A stretch of 21,667 nt of DNA from a virus (IMGVR_UViG_3300033148_002738:1-21667), one strand, 5' to 3'. Shown: positions 5,527 through 17,805, counted from the stretch's first letter. Numbers and translations are program-made. The notes: generated from the sequence alone by a model not told the origin.

Positions 5527-5960
5527 TCTTTAACTCTTTTAGAATAAATAAACCATTTTTGGCCTTCCGTTTCTACTTCCCGCGTTCTTACAAAACCTAA
5601 ATACTCAACTAACTTTATACTCTTTTCAAAACCGCATTTTATCGTTGCATTCAACTGGTTGAACGGGTATATCTCTTCAATAATTTTCAGGCCATCTTTT
5701 AAGCACATCAAGGTGTCTAACCGATGGCTTTGGCAGGTCTTGGATAGCCTCAGCCACATCTCGCCCTGTTCGGGTTCGTTTTCTATTGGATGTACTCCGC
5801 CACAACCTACTATCTCGCCGTTCCTTATCCCTGTTACCGCCAAGCCGGAATCTTCAATAGCTTGCACAAACTCCATATCAATTATTTCGGCATGAACCAT
5901 AGGCTCTATCGGCTCAAAAGCCTTAAAGTCATTCGCCTTAAATGGCCTTACGTATATCAT
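5523..5960 (-). CDS. GNAT-fold protein related to T7 gp13 (internal virion protein A)
   Basis: A 145-residue protein. ATG at 5960 is chosen because it overlaps the tail gene's stop as TGATG and has GAGG seven bases upstream; an in-frame TTG at 5963 would add one residue. The N-terminus IYVRPFKANDFKAF and the turn AVTGIRNGEIVGCGGVHPI match the first strands of GNAT acetyltransferases. The end, IKLVEYLGFVRTREVETE, matches the last helix and strand (A-x-x-x-Y-x-x-x-GF form). The acetyl-CoA loop (R/Q-x-x-G-x-G/A) is not clear, so it may be non-catalytic. Position between the gp12-like and gp14-like genes fits T7 gp13, needed for head assembly and ejection-protein loading. Confidence 0.75.
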   Translation of the reverse strand: MIYVRPFKANDFKAFEPIEPMVHAEIIDMEFVQAIEDSGLAVTGIRNGEIVGCGGVHPIENEPEQGEMWLRLSKTCQSHRLDTLMCLKDGLKIIEEIYPFNQLNATIKCGFEKSIKLVEYLGFVRTREVETEGQKWFIYSKRVKE

Positions 5961-8900
5961 CAATGTACCTCAAACTCAGCGGCTATACCCAGTAAAGTCA
6001 AGGGTTCCGGCGACTTCTGATAGACATAGATACTGGTATCCCTGCCGTATCCTGGCGGGAAAGTTTTTCTGTCCTGACCCGTAGTCTGGCCGGATAAATT
6101 GTAAGTCTCTAATGTATCCACGTCCTTACCTATTGAAAAATCACCGCTCACATACCAATTTGATACAACTTCATTTATCCGCTTTATTCTGCCCTGAATA
6201 GTCTCATTGCCGAGCCAGCTTAAAGGCATTGTCTCTAAATGGACTTCGTAAGGCAACCCTATTTGAACGGTAGAGGCAGTCGTTGTAACGCCACCGGACG
6301 ATAGTGTTATTGCCCCGTTTGATACTACTTCCGAATCAAATACAACACCATCGGCTAATACATATACTGTTTCACCTTCAAGATGGTCGAGTCCGGTCAT
6401 AGCAGAAGAGGGGGTAGAATCGTAAGTAATACCACAATCGACATAGTATGCGTCGGCGGCATCACTGCCAAAGTCCCTCGGCTGAAACTGTTCGATGTAC
6501 CTGACAGTTGAACCGTTTATTGTTCTTTTAATCACAGCCCAGACCTCATCTTCAGGGTCGCCGTGTATCCGTGCCACAGACTCAATATCCGAATCAGAAG
6601 TGCTGTCGGCTGTTACTATTCTCGACCACGCCGCTATATTCTCTTTTCTCTCATAAGAAAAGATTGGCATCTCGCCGTCGCTCCTGACGCACCATAAAAC
6701 CGAATCCGGCGTCTTTTGGAACGCAACATCAACAATACCACCATCGGCAACGAAGTTGGATAGTATCGTCATATCGGGGGCAACGTAAGAGTCAATCTCC
6801 CAGTTGTACGCAAGCTCCCTCATCTTTTCTGCGCCACGCTGAAAGAACAGAACGCTTTCATTGGCAAGGACGGCTTGTACGTCGGCACTGCCGTAAGTCG
6901 ATTGCTGTTGAGCAATTATGTTGGACGGTGTTAACGGTTCGTCTGTGCCGCCATCTATCGTCCACTCTGCACCTGAAGTACCGATAATCAACTTGTCCTT
7001 GCCTATAATCCATTCAATAACATTGACTTGCCTTGATGATAAAGTAAATATAATTGCATCATCGTCGTTTGTGCCGGACTTCATATTGTTGTAATCGCTC
7101 GTTACCGAGCCCCATATAGTGTCGGGCTGACTTATATTGCCGCCAAACACAAGCCTATCATCAAAGAAAGTTACCGTCCGAGGCCAACCCCTGTAATTAC
7201 TCCACGCACTCTCAGACCATTTATAAGTAGGGCCGGTTGAAGCAAGGGTGGTAAGAACCCTTCCGGTCGCAGACGTAGTAGATGCAACGGATGTTATCTC
7301 CACAATTCCTATATGCTCGGTCTGGTCAGTCGAAAAATATACTTCACAATCTTCGGCAGCATCACCGGTCGCCGTCAAAATACACCTGTAAGAAGCATCG
7401 CCCAAATCCTCTGTGCCCGTAGTCGAAACGTTACGGTCGTCGCTACTGCTAAATTCAAAAATTGCTTCCCATCCGTCGGCGTCGTGTGCCGCGCCTATAG
7501 TATAGTTTCTCTGTACTTCCAGTGTACCATTCCACGTCCCGTTAGTAATCAGAGTCCACGTTGCGCCCTTGTAAAGAGTGCCGCAATCCATCCAGCTTGT
7601 ATTCTCTACCTGACTGTTTGTATAATTATCTTCCAAGTCCGTATGGTATTCCAGTTCGCTAAGTGGGTGGACAAGTTTGAATAATGCCCCTGTCTGACTC
7701 TTTGAAGTAGGCTCGGAACCGCTCGGCAGGTGGCCTGAAATTGTTCCGGCGACAAACGGCGAACAGTTAGTGGCGGTGAGTATAACTGTACCTGTGGTTG
7801 CAGAGGCAGCTATTGTTTGGGTCGCGTCTGTGTTCTGGTCTCTAAATGGGCCGTTTTGGGCATTGAAAACGTCCAATGACCACGAATTATTGGCATAGCG
7901 GGAGAGCTTTCTCGTTTCATAATCGGGATGAGTTATATAAAGAACGTCGGCTGACTGTTCGTATTTCAATTCAAATAAATCCGCAGTCAGGTAAGGTGTA
8001 ATTATTTCGTAAGGAATTCCATTAGTAAGCGCAGCTACTTCGCTTGCTGTTAAGACATCTTTGAATATGGCTACGTTGTCAATCTTATCCGCCCAAATAT
8101 GGTCTAACCCACCGGCAGAGTTGGCATTTGCACCAATTCGCAGTTTGGCGGTGGTACTTTCCATTCCAACATAAGTGCTCACATCAGCCGTCGTCGTATC
8201 GACGGCAGAGCCGTCAACATAAAGAACTACCCCGTCCGTTGCCGAACTGCCGCCCTCACTGTTGTATGTCATAACTACGAAATGCCAGCCCACACTCAGG
8301 GCATCGTCAGTAACTACGGTTGGATACGAACCACCCAAATCTTCCGTACCCACCCCATAGTTATAAAGTGAAAATATCTCAGCAGCCGTTAAGGTTCTCT
8401 TAAACAATGCTACGTTATCTATTTTGTCCTGAAAGAAATTCGTAAGGGCAGGCCCTACACCGTACTTGGCACCGATAACCACCTTAGTTCCACCATTTAC
8501 CATCTTGGCATAAGCCGCATTATTGGTTTTAGTTGCATCGACCGACTTACCATCAACGTAAAGCGTTGCATAGTTCATCGCCGTTGCACCCGTCCAAGAA
8601 CTATGCTCACCGTTATATGTCGCACAGACAAAGTGCCAACCCACCGACAGGGCATCGTCGGCCTCCAGGTTAATTTTTATGTTGTTTGTCTCGTCGTAGA
8701 GAACAATCTGGGGCTTATTGTCAAAGGATAATCTGAACCTCCACTCCTTATCGGGAGCGTCATCGTCCCATTTAGTTAATATCTCCTCTTCCAAGCCGTT
8801 ATTTGTTACATTCACCCATGCACAGATACTAAAATCACCGTCCGTACCCTCTATAAAAGACAGTTCGTCGTGGTCGTTATCTATCACGACGGCATACTGA

Positions 8901-9805
8901 CCGTCCATATCAAACGAACCTGTTCCCACCTTGCCGGTAGCGTGGAGAACTGATGTATTGGCTTCCGCAGTACCATCGTGGGGGATAGACGATACATTAT
9001 CGTCAACCGTTGTGGATGCAGCATTTTCGTTTAACTTCCAATGTGCTATGCGGTCTGCGGTCAGGTCTATACTGTCGTCGGAAAATTCGACTTTCAATTG
9101 ACGAGTGGCATTCAAGGACAACTTATACTCTCTGGTTGAACCATCCTTCCATTTCGATATTATTACCTGCTCCACACCCGTATCGACTACACTTATCCAA
9201 GCGGCAATACTGAACGGATTATTGCCCGTTTCGTAAAAACTCAGTGCATCCGCATCTGCTATCTCAACGGCATAAACACCATTAAAGTCAAAACACCCTG
9301 TCCCTACCTTGCCTGTGTCGTGTAAGTTCTCAGTATTTGTTGTTGCTATTCCGTTATGTGCATTTTCTTCACCTGCGGTGTGGGTAGTGGCATCATTATC
9401 GTTCAGTTTCCAGTGTTCCACTAAGTTGTCAAGGGCAGATAAATCTTCCGTACCGGCATAACCACCTATAGCAGCACCATCCGTAAAAAATCTCATATAC
9501 TGATTGCCTAATTCGAGTATATAAGACTGGTCAGTAGAATACTCAAAAGGAATTATTCTGGTAGCGAGACTCGACTCTTTGACCTCGGCTATATATTTAG
9601 TGCCGGGCCGTTTGGTAGCACCGCCTTGCGGTAACGGAATCAGGTTCTCCATTACCTGACAACCCGACTGATACTTTGCCAAATCGTCCCTTGCGTTCAA
9701 GAGAGGCGAAAGCTCACCGGCATTGAAGTTATTGAATACCCTGTACGGATTACCGGCAAAGACCGCCGAGCATAACAATAATACAAAAACGAGTATCTTT
9801 TTCAT
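5960..9805 (-). CDS. T7 gp12-like tail nozzle protein with inserted LamG domains and a signal-peptide-like N-terminus
   Basis: A 1281-residue protein; T7 gp12 is 794. ATG at 9805 is chosen: it overlaps the upstream TAA as TAATG and has AAGGAA five bases before it. A TTG at 9826 would add seven residues. Residues 1-17 (MKKILVFVLLLCSAVFA) look like a Sec signal peptide and are followed at once by the usual family start, NNFNAGELSPLLNARDDLAK. The family scaffold runs to MRFFTDG (about residue 105) and resumes at PYEIITPYLTADLFELKYEQ (about residue 600). In between lie a LamG N-half, a complete LamG and a LamG C-half. The rest is typical family sequence: RGWPRTVTFFDDRLVFGG, then IGKDKLIIGTSGAEWTI, then FFQRGAEKMRELAYN. 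In the family it forms the hexameric nozzle at the tail tip. LamG jellyrolls often bind glycans, so a host-binding role is plausible but inferred. Confidence 0.85.
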   Translation of the reverse strand: MKKILVFVLLLCSAVFAGNPYRVFNNFNAGELSPLLNARDDLAKYQSGCQVMENLIPLPQGGATKRPGTKYIAEVKESSLATRIIPFEYSTDQSYILELGNQYMRFFTDGAAIGGYAGTEDLSALDNLVEHWKLNDNDATTHTAGEENAHNGIATTNTENLHDTGKVGTGCFDFNGVYAVEIADADALSFYETGNNPFSIAAWISVVDTGVEQVIISKWKDGSTREYKLSLNATRQLKVEFSDDSIDLTADRIAHWKLNENAASTTVDDNVSSIPHDGTAEANTSVLHATGKVGTGSFDMDGQYAVVIDNDHDELSFIEGTDGDFSICAWVNVTNNGLEEEILTKWDDDAPDKEWRFRLSFDNKPQIVLYDETNNIKINLEADDALSVGWHFVCATYNGEHSSWTGATAMNYATLYVDGKSVDATKTNNAAYAKMVNGGTKVVIGAKYGVGPALTNFFQDKIDNVALFKRTLTAAEIFSLYNYGVGTEDLGGSYPTVVTDDALSVGWHFVVMTYNSEGGSSATDGVVLYVDGSAVDTTTADVSTYVGMESTTAKLRIGANANSAGGLDHIWADKIDNVAIFKDVLTASEVAALTNGIPYEIITPYLTADLFELKYEQSADVLYITHPDYETRKLSRYANNSWSLDVFNAQNGPFRDQNTDATQTIAASATTGTVILTATNCSPFVAGTISGHLPSGSEPTSKSQTGALFKLVHPLSELEYHTDLEDNYTNSQVENTSWMDCGTLYKGATWTLITNGTWNGTLEVQRNYTIGAAHDADGWEAIFEFSSSDDRNVSTTGTEDLGDASYRCILTATGDAAEDCEVYFSTDQTEHIGIVEITSVASTTSATGRVLTTLASTGPTYKWSESAWSNYRGWPRTVTFFDDRLVFGGNISQPDTIWGSVTSDYNNMKSGTNDDDAIIFTLSSRQVNVIEWIIGKDKLIIGTSGAEWTIDGGTDEPLTPSNIIAQQQSTYGSADVQAVLANESVLFFQRGAEKMRELAYNWEIDSYVAPDMTILSNFVADGGIVDVAFQKTPDSVLWCVRSDGEMPIFSYERKENIAAWSRIVTADSTSDSDIESVARIHGDPEDEVWAVIKRTINGSTVRYIEQFQPRDFGSDAADAYYVDCGITYDSTPSSAMTGLDHLEGETVYVLADGVVFDSEVVSNGAITLSSGGVTTTASTVQIGLPYEVHLETMPLSWLGNETIQGRIKRINEVVSNWYVSGDFSIGKDVDTLETYNLSGQTTGQDRKTFPPGYGRDTSIYVYQKSPEPLTLLGIAAEFEVH
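8005..9440 (-). other. Inserted block of one whole and two half LamG-like jellyroll domains
   Basis: Inside the nozzle gene. The first unit starts with LVEHWKLNDND (about 9420) and stops in mid-domain near IDLTA. A second unit starts with RIAHWKLNENA (about 9050) and runs to completion at KIDNVALFKRTLTAAEIFSL (about 8370). A C-terminal half unit follows: DDALSVGWHFVVMTYN to KIDNVAIFKDVLTASEVAAL (about 8310-8030). The half units together would make one domain. A 14-bp direct repeat, aaatcttccgtacc, lies at 8337-8350 and 9441-9454, an in-frame distance of 1104 bases, and encodes GTEDL both times. That suggests tandem duplication followed by loss of two halves, or insertion of one domain inside another. 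Confidence 0.75.
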
Positions 9806-10560
9806 TATTTCCTTGCATTTAGCCAAGTCTGGGTCTTAATAGTCATTGCACCGCCTTCCTGCGCATCTAAGGCACGTGCCGTATCAAGATAACCGATAAC
9901 TTTTTTACTACCGTACAGCATAGCCTGCAAGTTCAAGGCCACAGCCTCATCACCCTTAATCGGGGCAGATAATTTACGGGCCAAGTTGATTACGAAACAC
10001 TCTTTGGCATATATCGGCCATGTGTCTAAAGTCGTATGCTGATAAATGTATTCGACCTTGAGCGTATTAAGGTCTGCGCCCTGTGAAGTACAATAACTGG
10101 ACAGGTCGGTAGTTTCAGTGCTTGATGTAAACGCCGTATCGACCAGATATGTCAGAGTGCTGCCCGAATCATCTGATTGAAGATACTCGCCTGCAAGATA
10201 GTCTGTGGACGTTACCCAACCAGATGGAGTTTCCCCCTCATTGGTCAATATTAAACCGTTTTCGACTTCAAACTTTGCGGTAGGGTCTTCCTCTATCTGT
10301 AATATCTTCAGATAATCCGAGGGCGGGGTGAAGGCATTGTCCCACCCAAACAAAGGGTCGGTAGTCTGGATTGCATAAGCCCTTTTCTTGGCGAAGTTCC
10401 ACTTACCTGCTACAAGGATTTCGTCCCTTGCATCATCGAAAAACGTCGTGCAATAAGTATGGTTCTGGCTCGAACCGCTCCCTACTATTTCCTCCGCGCC
10501 TATCAGGCCCAAAGATTGATTGCATAGGGCTATATTTGCATTGTTCTCGGTCATCGACAT
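9805..10560 (-). CDS. T7 gp11-like tail adaptor (gatekeeper) protein
   Basis: A 251-residue protein; T7 gp11 is 196. The N-terminal family pattern is clear: ANIALCNQSLGLIGAEEI, then a helix around FFDDARDEILVAGKWNFAKK, the W-x-F-A segment that defines the family. The C-terminal part has YIYQHTTLDTWPIYAKECFV followed by INLARKLSAPIKGDEAVALN, also typical. The extra length is a loop between about residues 105 and 165 (TPSGWVTSTDYLAGEYLQS region). In T7 twelve copies bind the portal and connect it to the gp12 nozzle, matching the neighbour here. ATG at 10560 has AGGGAG upstream; a second in-frame ATG lies two codons on. The gene ends in a TAATG overlap with the nozzle gene. Confidence 0.87.
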   Translation of the reverse strand: MSMTENNANIALCNQSLGLIGAEEIVGSGSSQNHTYCTTFFDDARDEILVAGKWNFAKKRAYAIQTTDPLFGWDNAFTPPSDYLKILQIEEDPTAKFEVENGLILTNEGETPSGWVTSTDYLAGEYLQSDDSGSTLTYLVDTAFTSSTETTDLSSYCTSQGADLNTLKVEYIYQHTTLDTWPIYAKECFVINLARKLSAPIKGDEAVALNLQAMLYGSKKVIGYLDTARALDAQEGGAMTIKTQTWLNARK

Positions 10561-10571
10561 AACAATACTCC

Positions 10572-11099
10572 CTAATTAGCCGATACTCTTGCGGCCCTGT
10601 CCAGCTTCCTGTAACACATATACCACGTTATCGCACCTGTTCCGGTAGATGATGTGTATTGCTCAATCTCGCCCGGCGAGCAGAACCAACTTAAGCGTCC
10701 ACCGGCACCTACATTGGCCGTTATGTCAAGAACGCCCTCGTCGGTAGCACTATTAAACCTTATAACATCACCGGCACCAAGAGTATTAACGGTAACATCC
10801 GTAGAAAAATGACGGTCATAGTCCGAACCGGCTGCTGCGTCTAACAGGATGGTCATATCACCCGGGTCGCCTCCCATCGCAGTAGTGCATTGGCCGAACA
10901 AAGATAAAATTTCAATCGGCCCGCCCGTTACTGTGAACATCTGGTCGGTCTGTGCAGTCATTACAGTTGACATCGAGATGAACTGTACCCCGTTGTCATA
11001 ACCTCTTGGTACTGCATAGGCAGGCTCGATAGGCAATCGCATAAACAATAGCCCGGCAATCAGACCGAGTATGACTGTACTTGTAATTAACTTCTTCAC
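10572..11099 (-). CDS. Probable virion surface protein with signal peptide (second of a paralogous pair)
   Basis: A 175-residue protein with a GTG start at 11099 preceded by AAAGGAAATAAC. Residues 1-29 form a textbook signal peptide: MKKL, a hydrophobic core (TSTVILGLIAGLLFM), then an AYA cleavage site before VPRGYDNG. The mature part is beta-rich and Gly/Thr/Asp-rich. It includes MFTVTGGPIEILSLFG and ends GTGAITWYMCYRKLDRAARV. The FTVTG-x-I block and the final Thr-Gly-x-Ile-x-W/Y-x-x-x-Y strand resemble the preceding gene's product, suggesting paralogy. Position between capsid and tail-adaptor genes suggests a head fibre, decoration or neck protein. No family was recognised with confidence. 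Confidence 0.7.
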   Translation of the reverse strand: MKKLITSTVILGLIAGLLFMRLPIEPAYAVPRGYDNGVQFISMSTVMTAQTDQMFTVTGGPIEILSLFGQCTTAMGGDPGDMTILLDAAAGSDYDRHFSTDVTVNTLGAGDVIRFNSATDEGVLDITANVGAGGRLSWFCSPGEIEQYTSSTGTGAITWYMCYRKLDRAARVSAN

Positions 11100-11155: not shown

Positions 11156-11854
11156 TTACGGAGCTGCACCAACTACTGTCGCACCCGATGACAATGGTAT
11201 ATACTGAAGATAGAAATTAACTACCCCAGCAGTAAGGTCGTGGTCGTTGATAGTAAGTATTATATTACCATCTTTGACCACAAGCCATTCGTCAGCCATC
11301 TGTGCACCGTCAGCGTCAGCAGCAGTAATAAGCGTCCAAGTATCGCCTGCATCAAAAGCTGTACCATCTGCCACATCTTGTATTAAGAGTGCGGCGGTAT
11401 TACCCGGCACTCCTAACTCTAACGTATCGTTTGACGTTGAAGTTACTTGTGTGGTGATAGTCGCCGCAGCTCTGCATAATATGTCGCCTGTTACAGTAAA
11501 AATAGTGGGGTCATCAGCGGCTCCATATCCGTTGCCTGCCGTCATAGCACTTGTTGTATCACTAATCGTAATAGGTGTACCAGTAAGCAATGCCATCTCC
11601 GCAGCAGTGTCCATAGCGGAAGTATCAGCGATAATAGTGTCAAGGTCCGTGTGAGCAAGGTCAAGCGATGCCTTGATGTTATCGTCCTGTGCAGTACCGC
11701 CTATCGGGCCGGTAAAGTTGCCTATCATCGCATTTTGGTTGCCCGGCACTATCGGTCTTGCACTTAACGGCTGTACCATCAAATTAGCAATAAGCAAGGA
11801 GACAACAACCACAAGCAGAACTGCTATTGAAACTTTTCCAATTCGCTCTTTCAT
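11156..11854 (-). CDS. Probable virion surface protein with N-terminal signal or anchor segment (first of a paralogous pair)
   Basis: A 232-residue protein. ATG at 11854 has AAAGGAG nine bases upstream and follows the previous gene's TAA by 17 bases. The N-terminus has charged residues (MKERIGK) and then one strong hydrophobic segment (VSIAVLLVVVVSLLIANLMV, about residues 8-27). A possible signal-peptidase site follows at LSA before RPIVPGNQ. The mature part is rich in Ala, Thr, Asp and Gly and has few Lys, typical of beta-structured phage surface proteins. It includes a helix-like stretch (DLAHTDLDTIIADTSAMDTA) and PTIFTVTGDILCRAAATITT, which parallels the next gene's FTVTG block. Function unknown. 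The location next to capsid and decoration genes supports a structural role. Confidence 0.7.
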   Translation of the reverse strand: MKERIGKVSIAVLLVVVVSLLIANLMVQPLSARPIVPGNQNAMIGNFTGPIGGTAQDDNIKASLDLAHTDLDTIIADTSAMDTAAEMALLTGTPITISDTTSAMTAGNGYGAADDPTIFTVTGDILCRAAATITTQVTSTSNDTLELGVPGNTAALLIQDVADGTAFDAGDTWTLITAADADGAQMADEWLVVKDGNIILTINDHDLTAGVVNFYLQYIPLSSGATVVGAAP

Positions 11855-17157: not shown

Positions 17158-17805
17158 TCATTTGTTTTCCAATGCCTCAATGCGCATCTTCAAACTCTTA
17201 ATGTCATTAACAATGGTTAGAAGTTCACTGGGAGTTATACCATCAACCCCGTCCTTGCCGTCCTTGCCATCGAAATAATCTTTGCCTTTGACAGGTGTGT
17301 AACCGTCCTTGCCGTCCTTGCCGTCCTTGCCATCAAAATAATCTTTGCCTTTGACGGGTGTGTAACCGTCCTTGCCGTCCTTGCCGTCCTTGCCATCAAA
17401 ATAATCTTTGCCTTTGACGGGCGTGTAACCGTCCTTGCCGTCTCCACCGTTCCTGCCGTCCTTACCGTCCCTGCCATCAAAATAATCTTTGCCTTTGACG
17501 GGTGTGTAACCGTCCTTGCCGTCCTTGCCATCAAAATAATCTTTGCCTTTGACGGGCGTGTAACCGTCCTTGCCATCGAAATAGTCTTTGCCTTTGACGG
17601 GCGTGTAACCGTCCTTGCCGTCTCCACCGTCTTTGCCAGGGTCTCCTTTCGGGCCTCTATCGCCCTGGGCCAAGACCTCTAACGGGCCGCCACCTTCGCC
17701 GACAAGAAAAAGACCACCCGACTTAACTATAATTCTGCTCGCTATCTTAGCGGCAAGCGATTCTGTGAGTTTTTCCTTTTCCGTTAAGTGCTTTTCTTTT
17801 ATCAT
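17158..17805 (-). CDS. Collagen-like fibre protein
   Basis: A 215-residue protein. Residues 1-45 are a helical, then hydrophobic N-terminal domain (LTESLAAKIASRIIVKSGGL). Residues 48 to about 187 are Gly-X-Y, starting GDRGPKGDPGKDG and then six copies of GYTPVKGKDYFDG separated by GKD spacers. In each copy two of four Gly positions are Pro or Tyr, yet the triplet register is kept. The C-terminus (ITPSELLTIVNDIKSLKMRI...) has heptad hydrophobics and probably forms a trimeric coiled coil that registers the triple helix. This motif is common in phage fibres and neck appendages. Location between terminase and portal genes suggests a head or neck fibre. ATG at 17805 has GAAGGG upstream. Confidence 0.85.
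   Translation of the reverse strand: MIKEKHLTEKEKLTESLAAKIASRIIVKSGGLFLVGEGGGPLEVLAQGDRGPKGDPGKDGGDGKDGYTPVKGKDYFDGKDGYTPVKGKDYFDGKDGKDGYTPVKGKDYFDGRDGKDGRNGGDGKDGYTPVKGKDYFDGKDGKDGKDGYTPVKGKDYFDGKDGKDGKDGYTPVKGKDYFDGKDGKDGVDGITPSELLTIVNDIKSLKMRIEALENK
17260..17630 (-). repeat. Six-copy tandem coding repeat in the collagen-like gene
   Basis: Six near-identical 39-base blocks encode GYTPVKGKDYFDG. Their start-to-start distances are, in coding direction, 45, 54, 81, 63 and 63 bases, all multiples of three. The variation comes from different numbers of GGCAAGGACGGT-type GKD units. Nearly identical codons point to recent expansion or gene conversion, and copy number probably varies between relatives. 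Confidence 0.9.

Follow-up and report, generated by a model that had tools for sequence, protein, structure and literature searches.

A LamG domain nested in another LamG domain in a phage nozzle protein: a candidate exchangeable host-surface-binding module

Background

In short-tailed phages, fibres and spikes are usually credited with recognizing the host. The closest described counterparts of the protein analyzed here are the nozzle of Cobetia phage Carin1 (gp36; PDB 8ck1) and gp12 of phage T7 (7boy), which share its scaffold and fold and are encoded in the same gene order, with an adaptor, the nozzle and a small acetyltransferase-like protein. Binding of a host receptor by a tail tubular protein has a precedent, namely TTPB of phage OWB (PMC7241545). 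LamG/ConA-like lectin domains (PF13385) of phage structural proteins belong to the same family, and have the same predicted fold, as the insert described below.

The sequence that we analyzed is a viral contig of 21,667 nucleotides (IMGVR_UViG_3300033148_002738; hereafter, the window). Unlike the Carin1 nozzle, in which residues 103 and 104 are contiguous and no LamG domain is present at this point, and unlike T7 gp12, a protein of 794 amino acids (aa) that also lacks such an insert, the DNA-gating nozzle encoded in the window bears an exchangeable lectin-fold module that is swapped whole between strongly diverged nozzles.

The nozzle gene and its scaffold

The open reading frame (5960-9826, minus strand) encodes 1288 aa when counted from the first TTG. 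Judging from the sequence, translation more likely starts at position 9805: the ATG there comes with a ribosome-binding site, AAGGA, and overlaps the stop codon of the adaptor gene (TAATG), and the product would be 1281 aa long. This protein matches the phrog_376 tail protein profile at positions 9-709 of 712 (E = 6.5e-191) and the Carin1 nozzle 8ck1 (E = 5e-113). A search with the AlphaFold2 (AF2) model of residues 27-1226 (pLDDT 85.6, pTM 0.65) retrieved phage tail and nozzle structures as the top twelve PDB matches, T7 gp12 among them (7boy_s, E = 2.4e-12, TM-score 0.34 of target); for 8ck1, the E-value was 1e-43. The sequence-profile comparison of T7 gp12 with relatives that have an empty insertion site yields a weak signal (hhalign probability of 24% over 75 columns), and it is the fold, together with the link through Carin1, that justifies calling the scaffold T7 gp12-type. 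Upstream of the nozzle gene is a gp11-like adaptor gene (phrog_394), and downstream are genes for internal virion proteins (phrog_4177/308 and phrog_418); the nozzle neighbourhood of phage HTVC203P has the same order. The domain labels of the left scaffold part (Table 1) follow the T7 domain order (PMC6702177), mapped onto the window by eye, and the right part, by homology to the solved nozzles, would comprise the rest of the propeller, the tip, the fibre dock and the platform.

Table 1. Features of the nozzle gene and its LamG cassette (window coordinates)
Feature	Position	Strand	Basis or remark
Nozzle gene from the likely ATG	5963..9805	-	T7 gp12-type scaffold with nested LamG cassette; phrog_376, 8ck1, AF2 fold, start analysis
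Signal-peptide-like N-terminus MKKILVFVLLLCSAVFA, putative	9755..9805	-	Sequence; common to most LamG-bearing relatives, lacking in those with an empty site
Left scaffold part	9467..9754	-	Alignment with residues 15-103 of the Carin1 nozzle; would comprise the platform strands and the beginning of propeller blade 1
Whole exchangeable cassette, ~483 aa	8018..9466	-	Not present in cultured relatives, Carin1 included
Repeat copy 1, GTEDL ahead of outer LamG	9441..9454	-	Sequence
Outer LamG, N-terminal half	9062..9427	-	PF13385 15-63; N-half HMM
Inner complete LamG, in hairpin of outer LamG	8351..9061	-	PF13385 15-150, 66.4 bits; N-half and C-half HMMs
Repeat copy 2, GTEDL behind inner LamG	8337..8350	-	Sequence
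Outer LamG, C-terminal half	8015..8335	-	PF13385 74-151, 43.5 bits; C-half HMM
Right scaffold part	5963..8014	-	Aligned to Carin1 nozzle residues 104-821; fold search

Architecture of the LamG cassette

The scaffold breaks off after ...YMRFFTDGAAI (aa 120) and picks up at ...IPYEIITPYLTADL (about aa 604). In the alignment with 8ck1, the break falls between Carin1 residues 103 and 104, with all scaffold residues retained and about 480 residues added. These comprise a LamG N-half (aa about 134-255), a complete LamG (256-492) and a LamG C-half (498-604); PF13385 is the sole Pfam family with a significant score in this region. The inner LamG scores well above the curated cut-off of 27.6 bits, and the C-half alone reaches 43.5 bits; the N-half alone is below the cut-off (17.4 bits, E = 0.005). 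When the two outer halves are joined, they match the profile in one stretch, 15-151, at 61.9 bits, over the cut-off and comparable to a natural single-LamG relative, L009 (52.8 bits). The outer halves cover complementary parts of PF13385, which rules out three independent complete domains.

The AF2 model of the cassette, built from an alignment of nested proteins only (pLDDT 85), contains the full strand set for both LamGs, with the strands of the outer LamG flanking the inner one on both sides. The inner LamG is located between the outer strand that ends near a DxS motif and the segment before GWHF, that is, in a beta-hairpin. The fold matches of the cassette are ConA-like jelly-roll domains; toxin binding domains also appear among the PDB matches, reflecting the common ConA-like fold. 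A GH16-type enzyme is ruled out: the catalytic ExDxxE motif of GH16-type ConA-like hydrolases was found in none of the 40 LamG cassettes.

A preliminary description of this DNA had recognized a gp12-type nozzle interrupted at 8005-9454 by an N-half, a complete domain and a C-half of LamG. The profile and fold searches bear out both the nozzle and the LamG assignments as well as this layout, and the boundaries agree with ours to within a few codons. It had further suggested that one domain might be nested inside the other, which agrees with the joined-half score, the model, and the co-variation and site states described below.

Three near-identical contigs that were assembled separately (the window, L002 and L004) show the nested arrangement, as do 23 more distant loci, which rules out an assembly artefact. 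In L004, which shares 99.6% identity with the window, the inner N-half contains an apparent 19-bp deletion at 5923 (window 8886-8904) that breaks the frame and may be an assembly error.

Pairing of the LamG halves

All four halves are homologous, and the outer and inner LamGs, at about 36% identity, are equally similar within a protein and between proteins (43-48% in the window), so that an independent test is required to establish which halves pair. The homology by itself is compatible with a crossed, domain-swapped arrangement, in which the outer N-half would pair with the inner C-half and the inner N-half with the outer C-half; indeed, a simple MAFFT alignment of single and nested proteins joins the inner N-half with the outer C-half. 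Such an alignment is misleading when all halves are homologous, and we used half-domain trees and correlations between the distance matrices of the halves, calculated from the 24 nested proteins, in its place. The distance correlations are 0.76 for the two outer halves and 0.59 for the two inner halves, compared to 0.52 and 0.43 for the crossed pairs, and the nested correlations exceed the crossed ones in all 5000 of 5000 subsamples. Without the tightest clade, the outer halves still correlate at 0.80 and the crossed pairs at 0.26 and 0.30; the inner halves, however, reach only 0.28. In the half-domain trees, the outer C-halves form a single, weakly supported group, and the clustering of labels is far above that in shuffled controls. 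Together with the joined-half score, which is that of one whole domain, these results make crossed pairing very improbable.

The outer halves, although separated by ~240 residues, are thus inherited as one domain, as indicated by their co-variation. They co-vary far more with each other than with the intervening domain and, therefore, the inner LamG sits in one beta-hairpin of the outer LamG. The strand pairing within the outer LamG is predicted from profile, homology and co-variation.

States of the insertion site

We searched IMG/VR using the full-length protein as well as alignments of the nested and of the single inserts, and read the site with half-domain HMMs. Three states of the same site were observed among the homologs. 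In some relatives, it is empty, with about 9-11 aa between the anchors. A single LamG (about 252 aa) occupies it in 14 plain loci (245-260 aa) and, with further inserts, in L012 and L054. The nested order N-N-C-C (about 495 aa) was found in 24 loci including the window (483-503 aa, with one of 562 aa that contains an extra stretch). The difference in length between the nested and single inserts equals the length of one LamG. The half-domain HMMs detected the tandem order N-C-N-C at this site in no locus, which rules out tandem LamGs.

No LamG is present at this site in the cultured relatives HTVC203P, BcepC6B, a Vibrio phage, Carin1 and Shamal, and a search of 50,697 records of cultured phages with the insert sequence gave no match at E 0.01; metagenomes may thus be the sole known source of the module. 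A scan of genome contigs returned scaffold relatives with empty sites and distant LamG proteins, with no nested cassette among them.

Several loci show additional variation. The nozzle frame of L107 contains ~80 extra aa after the first inner LamG strand, to which Pfam assigns no family and which possibly represents a further level of nesting. In L012 and L054, another stretch is inserted in the C-half of the single LamG, near its end (in L054, with a weak match to F5/8 type C, E = 0.028), which suggests a second insertion-tolerant loop. Matches to LamG or LamG halves outside the nozzle frame were detected in L054 and L067, and weaker ones in L038, L058 and L064; LamG may thus recur elsewhere in these phages.

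The other inserts at the site in L012, L054 and L107 are what would be expected if the nested LamG were a functionless accretion, with an insert-tolerant hairpin collecting mobile domains. However, the frame is open and the core residues are conserved in 24 diverged nested proteins, and intact cassettes have been repeatedly retained; we consider accretion improbable.

The 14-bp repeat

An exact 14-bp repeat brackets the outer N-half and the inner LamG (Table 1), in frame and 1104 bp apart. At least one exact 14-mer repeat occurs in 1-4% of simulated or codon-shuffled genes, so the match is above chance, and it had been taken in the preliminary description for a duplication scar, consistent with a recent tandem duplication between the two copies that would have made the extra domain in the window phage. 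This interpretation failed on comparison with the relatives: 23 diverged proteins are equally nested and share at most 9 bp at the repeat positions. What most of these relatives conserve at both positions is the protein motif GxExL; a third GTEDL is found in the scaffold, at aa 804. The relatives thus share the nesting but not the DNA repeat, whose identity is peculiar to the window and younger than the nesting. Moreover, the outer and inner LamGs of the window are only 43-48% identical, and the outer and inner LamGs of one protein are, on average, no more alike than those of different proteins. A recent duplication is thereby refuted and carries next to no weight as an explanation, whereas an ancient one is conceivable; the 14-bp repeat is a conserved linker motif that is identical at the DNA level by happenstance in the window phage.

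Exchange and variability of the cassette

The distances for the left and right scaffold parts correlate with each other (Spearman 0.70); for the insert parts, the correlations are -0.07 to 0.12 with the short flanks and reach 0.21 at most with the long right part. The inserts of L029 and L036 are 70% identical, with flanks of 46% and 33% identity, and the converse is seen in L005 and L105, with a 39% identical insert between flanks of 89% and 78%. The identity changes at sharp breakpoints, TDGA..G/GTE and YEI/TPYLTADLF (the slash marks the breakpoint). On the scaffold tree, the supported branches alone require the nested state to have changed 10 times or more. A faster clock of the insert cannot make inserts more similar than their scaffolds and, by comparison of the sequences, the cassette moves horizontally between nozzles. 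The inner LamG also moves partly independently: L006 and L031 are 69% identical in the outer and 43% in the inner LamG, and L003 and L105 are 43% and 53% identical, respectively. Across the nozzle family, the inner LamG is more variable than the outer one, by a modest gap (42% versus 47% identity). The swapping of the two-LamG piece between diverged nozzles suggests an exchangeable attachment head.

Location and predicted function of the cassette

Mapped by eye, the insertion point would fall in the C-D hairpin of propeller blade 1 (about residues 90-100 of T7 gp12). The tail-tip location proposed in the preliminary description does not agree with this placement: in T7, it is blade 3 from which the tip domain emerges (PMC6702177).

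The explanation that, as a whole, we consider probable, albeit with reservations, is that the LamG-in-LamG on propeller blade 1 is an exchangeable host-surface-binding module. Under this scenario, the outer LamG would be inserted into a hairpin of the first beta-propeller blade of the nozzle, giving an insertion hierarchy of propeller, outer LamG and inner LamG, and the hexameric nozzle would display six copies of the cassette per virion. The outer LamG would serve as the adapter by which the module is anchored in the nozzle, and the inner LamG as the exposed, faster-changing head. The module would bind a glycan or glycoprotein on the host surface, and phages would trade the cassette by recombining within the conserved scaffold stretches that flank it, with a presumed effect on host range. 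Glycan binding, in particular, is plausible given the fold and the swapping of the cassette, and the most likely function of the cassette would be that of a swappable surface-binding head. The role envisaged here resembles that of OWB TTPB in that a nozzle protein is active in host recognition, but the partner of TTPB is a host membrane protein, Vp0980 (PMC7241545), as opposed to the surface glycan or glycoprotein proposed for the window phage.

Alternatively, the nested cassette could be structural, a brace or collar of the nozzle or a docking surface for tail parts, rather than a receptor binder. The very constant length of the insert and its position in the nozzle near the propeller, the loops of which contact neighbours in T7 (PMC6702177), are compatible with such a role. 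However, the cassette is missing from many relatives and is freely exchanged between scaffolds with which it does not co-vary, whereas a tightly fitted part would resist exchange. A structural role hence appears unlikely, if still worth considering, compared with the surface-binding module.

LamG nesting in an unrelated phage protein

Among models of viral proteins, the highest TM-score with the cassette model (0.44 of query) was obtained for M4QRQ0 of Synechococcus phage S-SKS1, which we matched to SWZG_00005 by its length of 960 aa. As in the window, a complete LamG interrupts another LamG of this protein at the same hairpin, and it is again the outer domain that is conserved and the inner one that varies. 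Its first LamG consists of profile positions 4-58, a complete LamG, positions 73-103, two LamGs and positions 111-150, and the joined pieces score 67.9 bits. In S-SKS1-related contigs, the outer pieces are 82-100% identical and the hairpin LamG mostly 40-46% (72% in L189). SWZG_00005 is nonetheless a different protein, in which no nozzle scaffold was detected, and its outer LamG, unlike that of the window, has a second insertion site that holds two more LamGs.

In the relatives that were scanned piece by piece, the nozzle family of the window and the S-SKS1 group were the only ones with nesting at this hairpin. Insertion of the same domain at one hairpin in two unrelated phage proteins translates into a testable rule, a conserved outer socket with a variable inner head. 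We tentatively propose, with considerable doubt, that the insertion of one LamG into another at a single hairpin is a general blueprint for phage adhesins that can be exchanged, with a fixed outer socket and a plug-in inner head, and that it originated two or more times, in nozzles of the podovirus type and in proteins of the S-SKS1 type. In the literature covered, which included little from subscription journals, we found no paper on nested LamG domains, LamG in nozzles or signal peptides on phage structural proteins.

Signal-like N-termini and other genes

A signal peptide would be unexpected in a virion protein that assembles in the cytoplasm. The signal-like N-terminus of the nozzle (Table 1), as predicted from the sequence, does not fit cytoplasmic assembly well and thus counts against the explanation that we favour. 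Signal-peptide-like N-termini were found in 31 of the 40 LamG-bearing nozzles versus 3 of the 102 with empty or other sites, counts that are confounded with phylogeny, many of the 102 being near copies.

Signal-peptide-like starts are also present in two genes of the window between the capsid and adaptor genes (10572-11099 and 11156-11854, both on the minus strand), and in relatives including L003, L005 and L105, one or two of the capsid-adaptor genes start in the same manner. Between the terminase and portal genes, the window additionally encodes a collagen-like protein with KDGYTPVKGKDYFDGKDG repeats (17158-17805, minus strand) that matches a collagen-like tail family.
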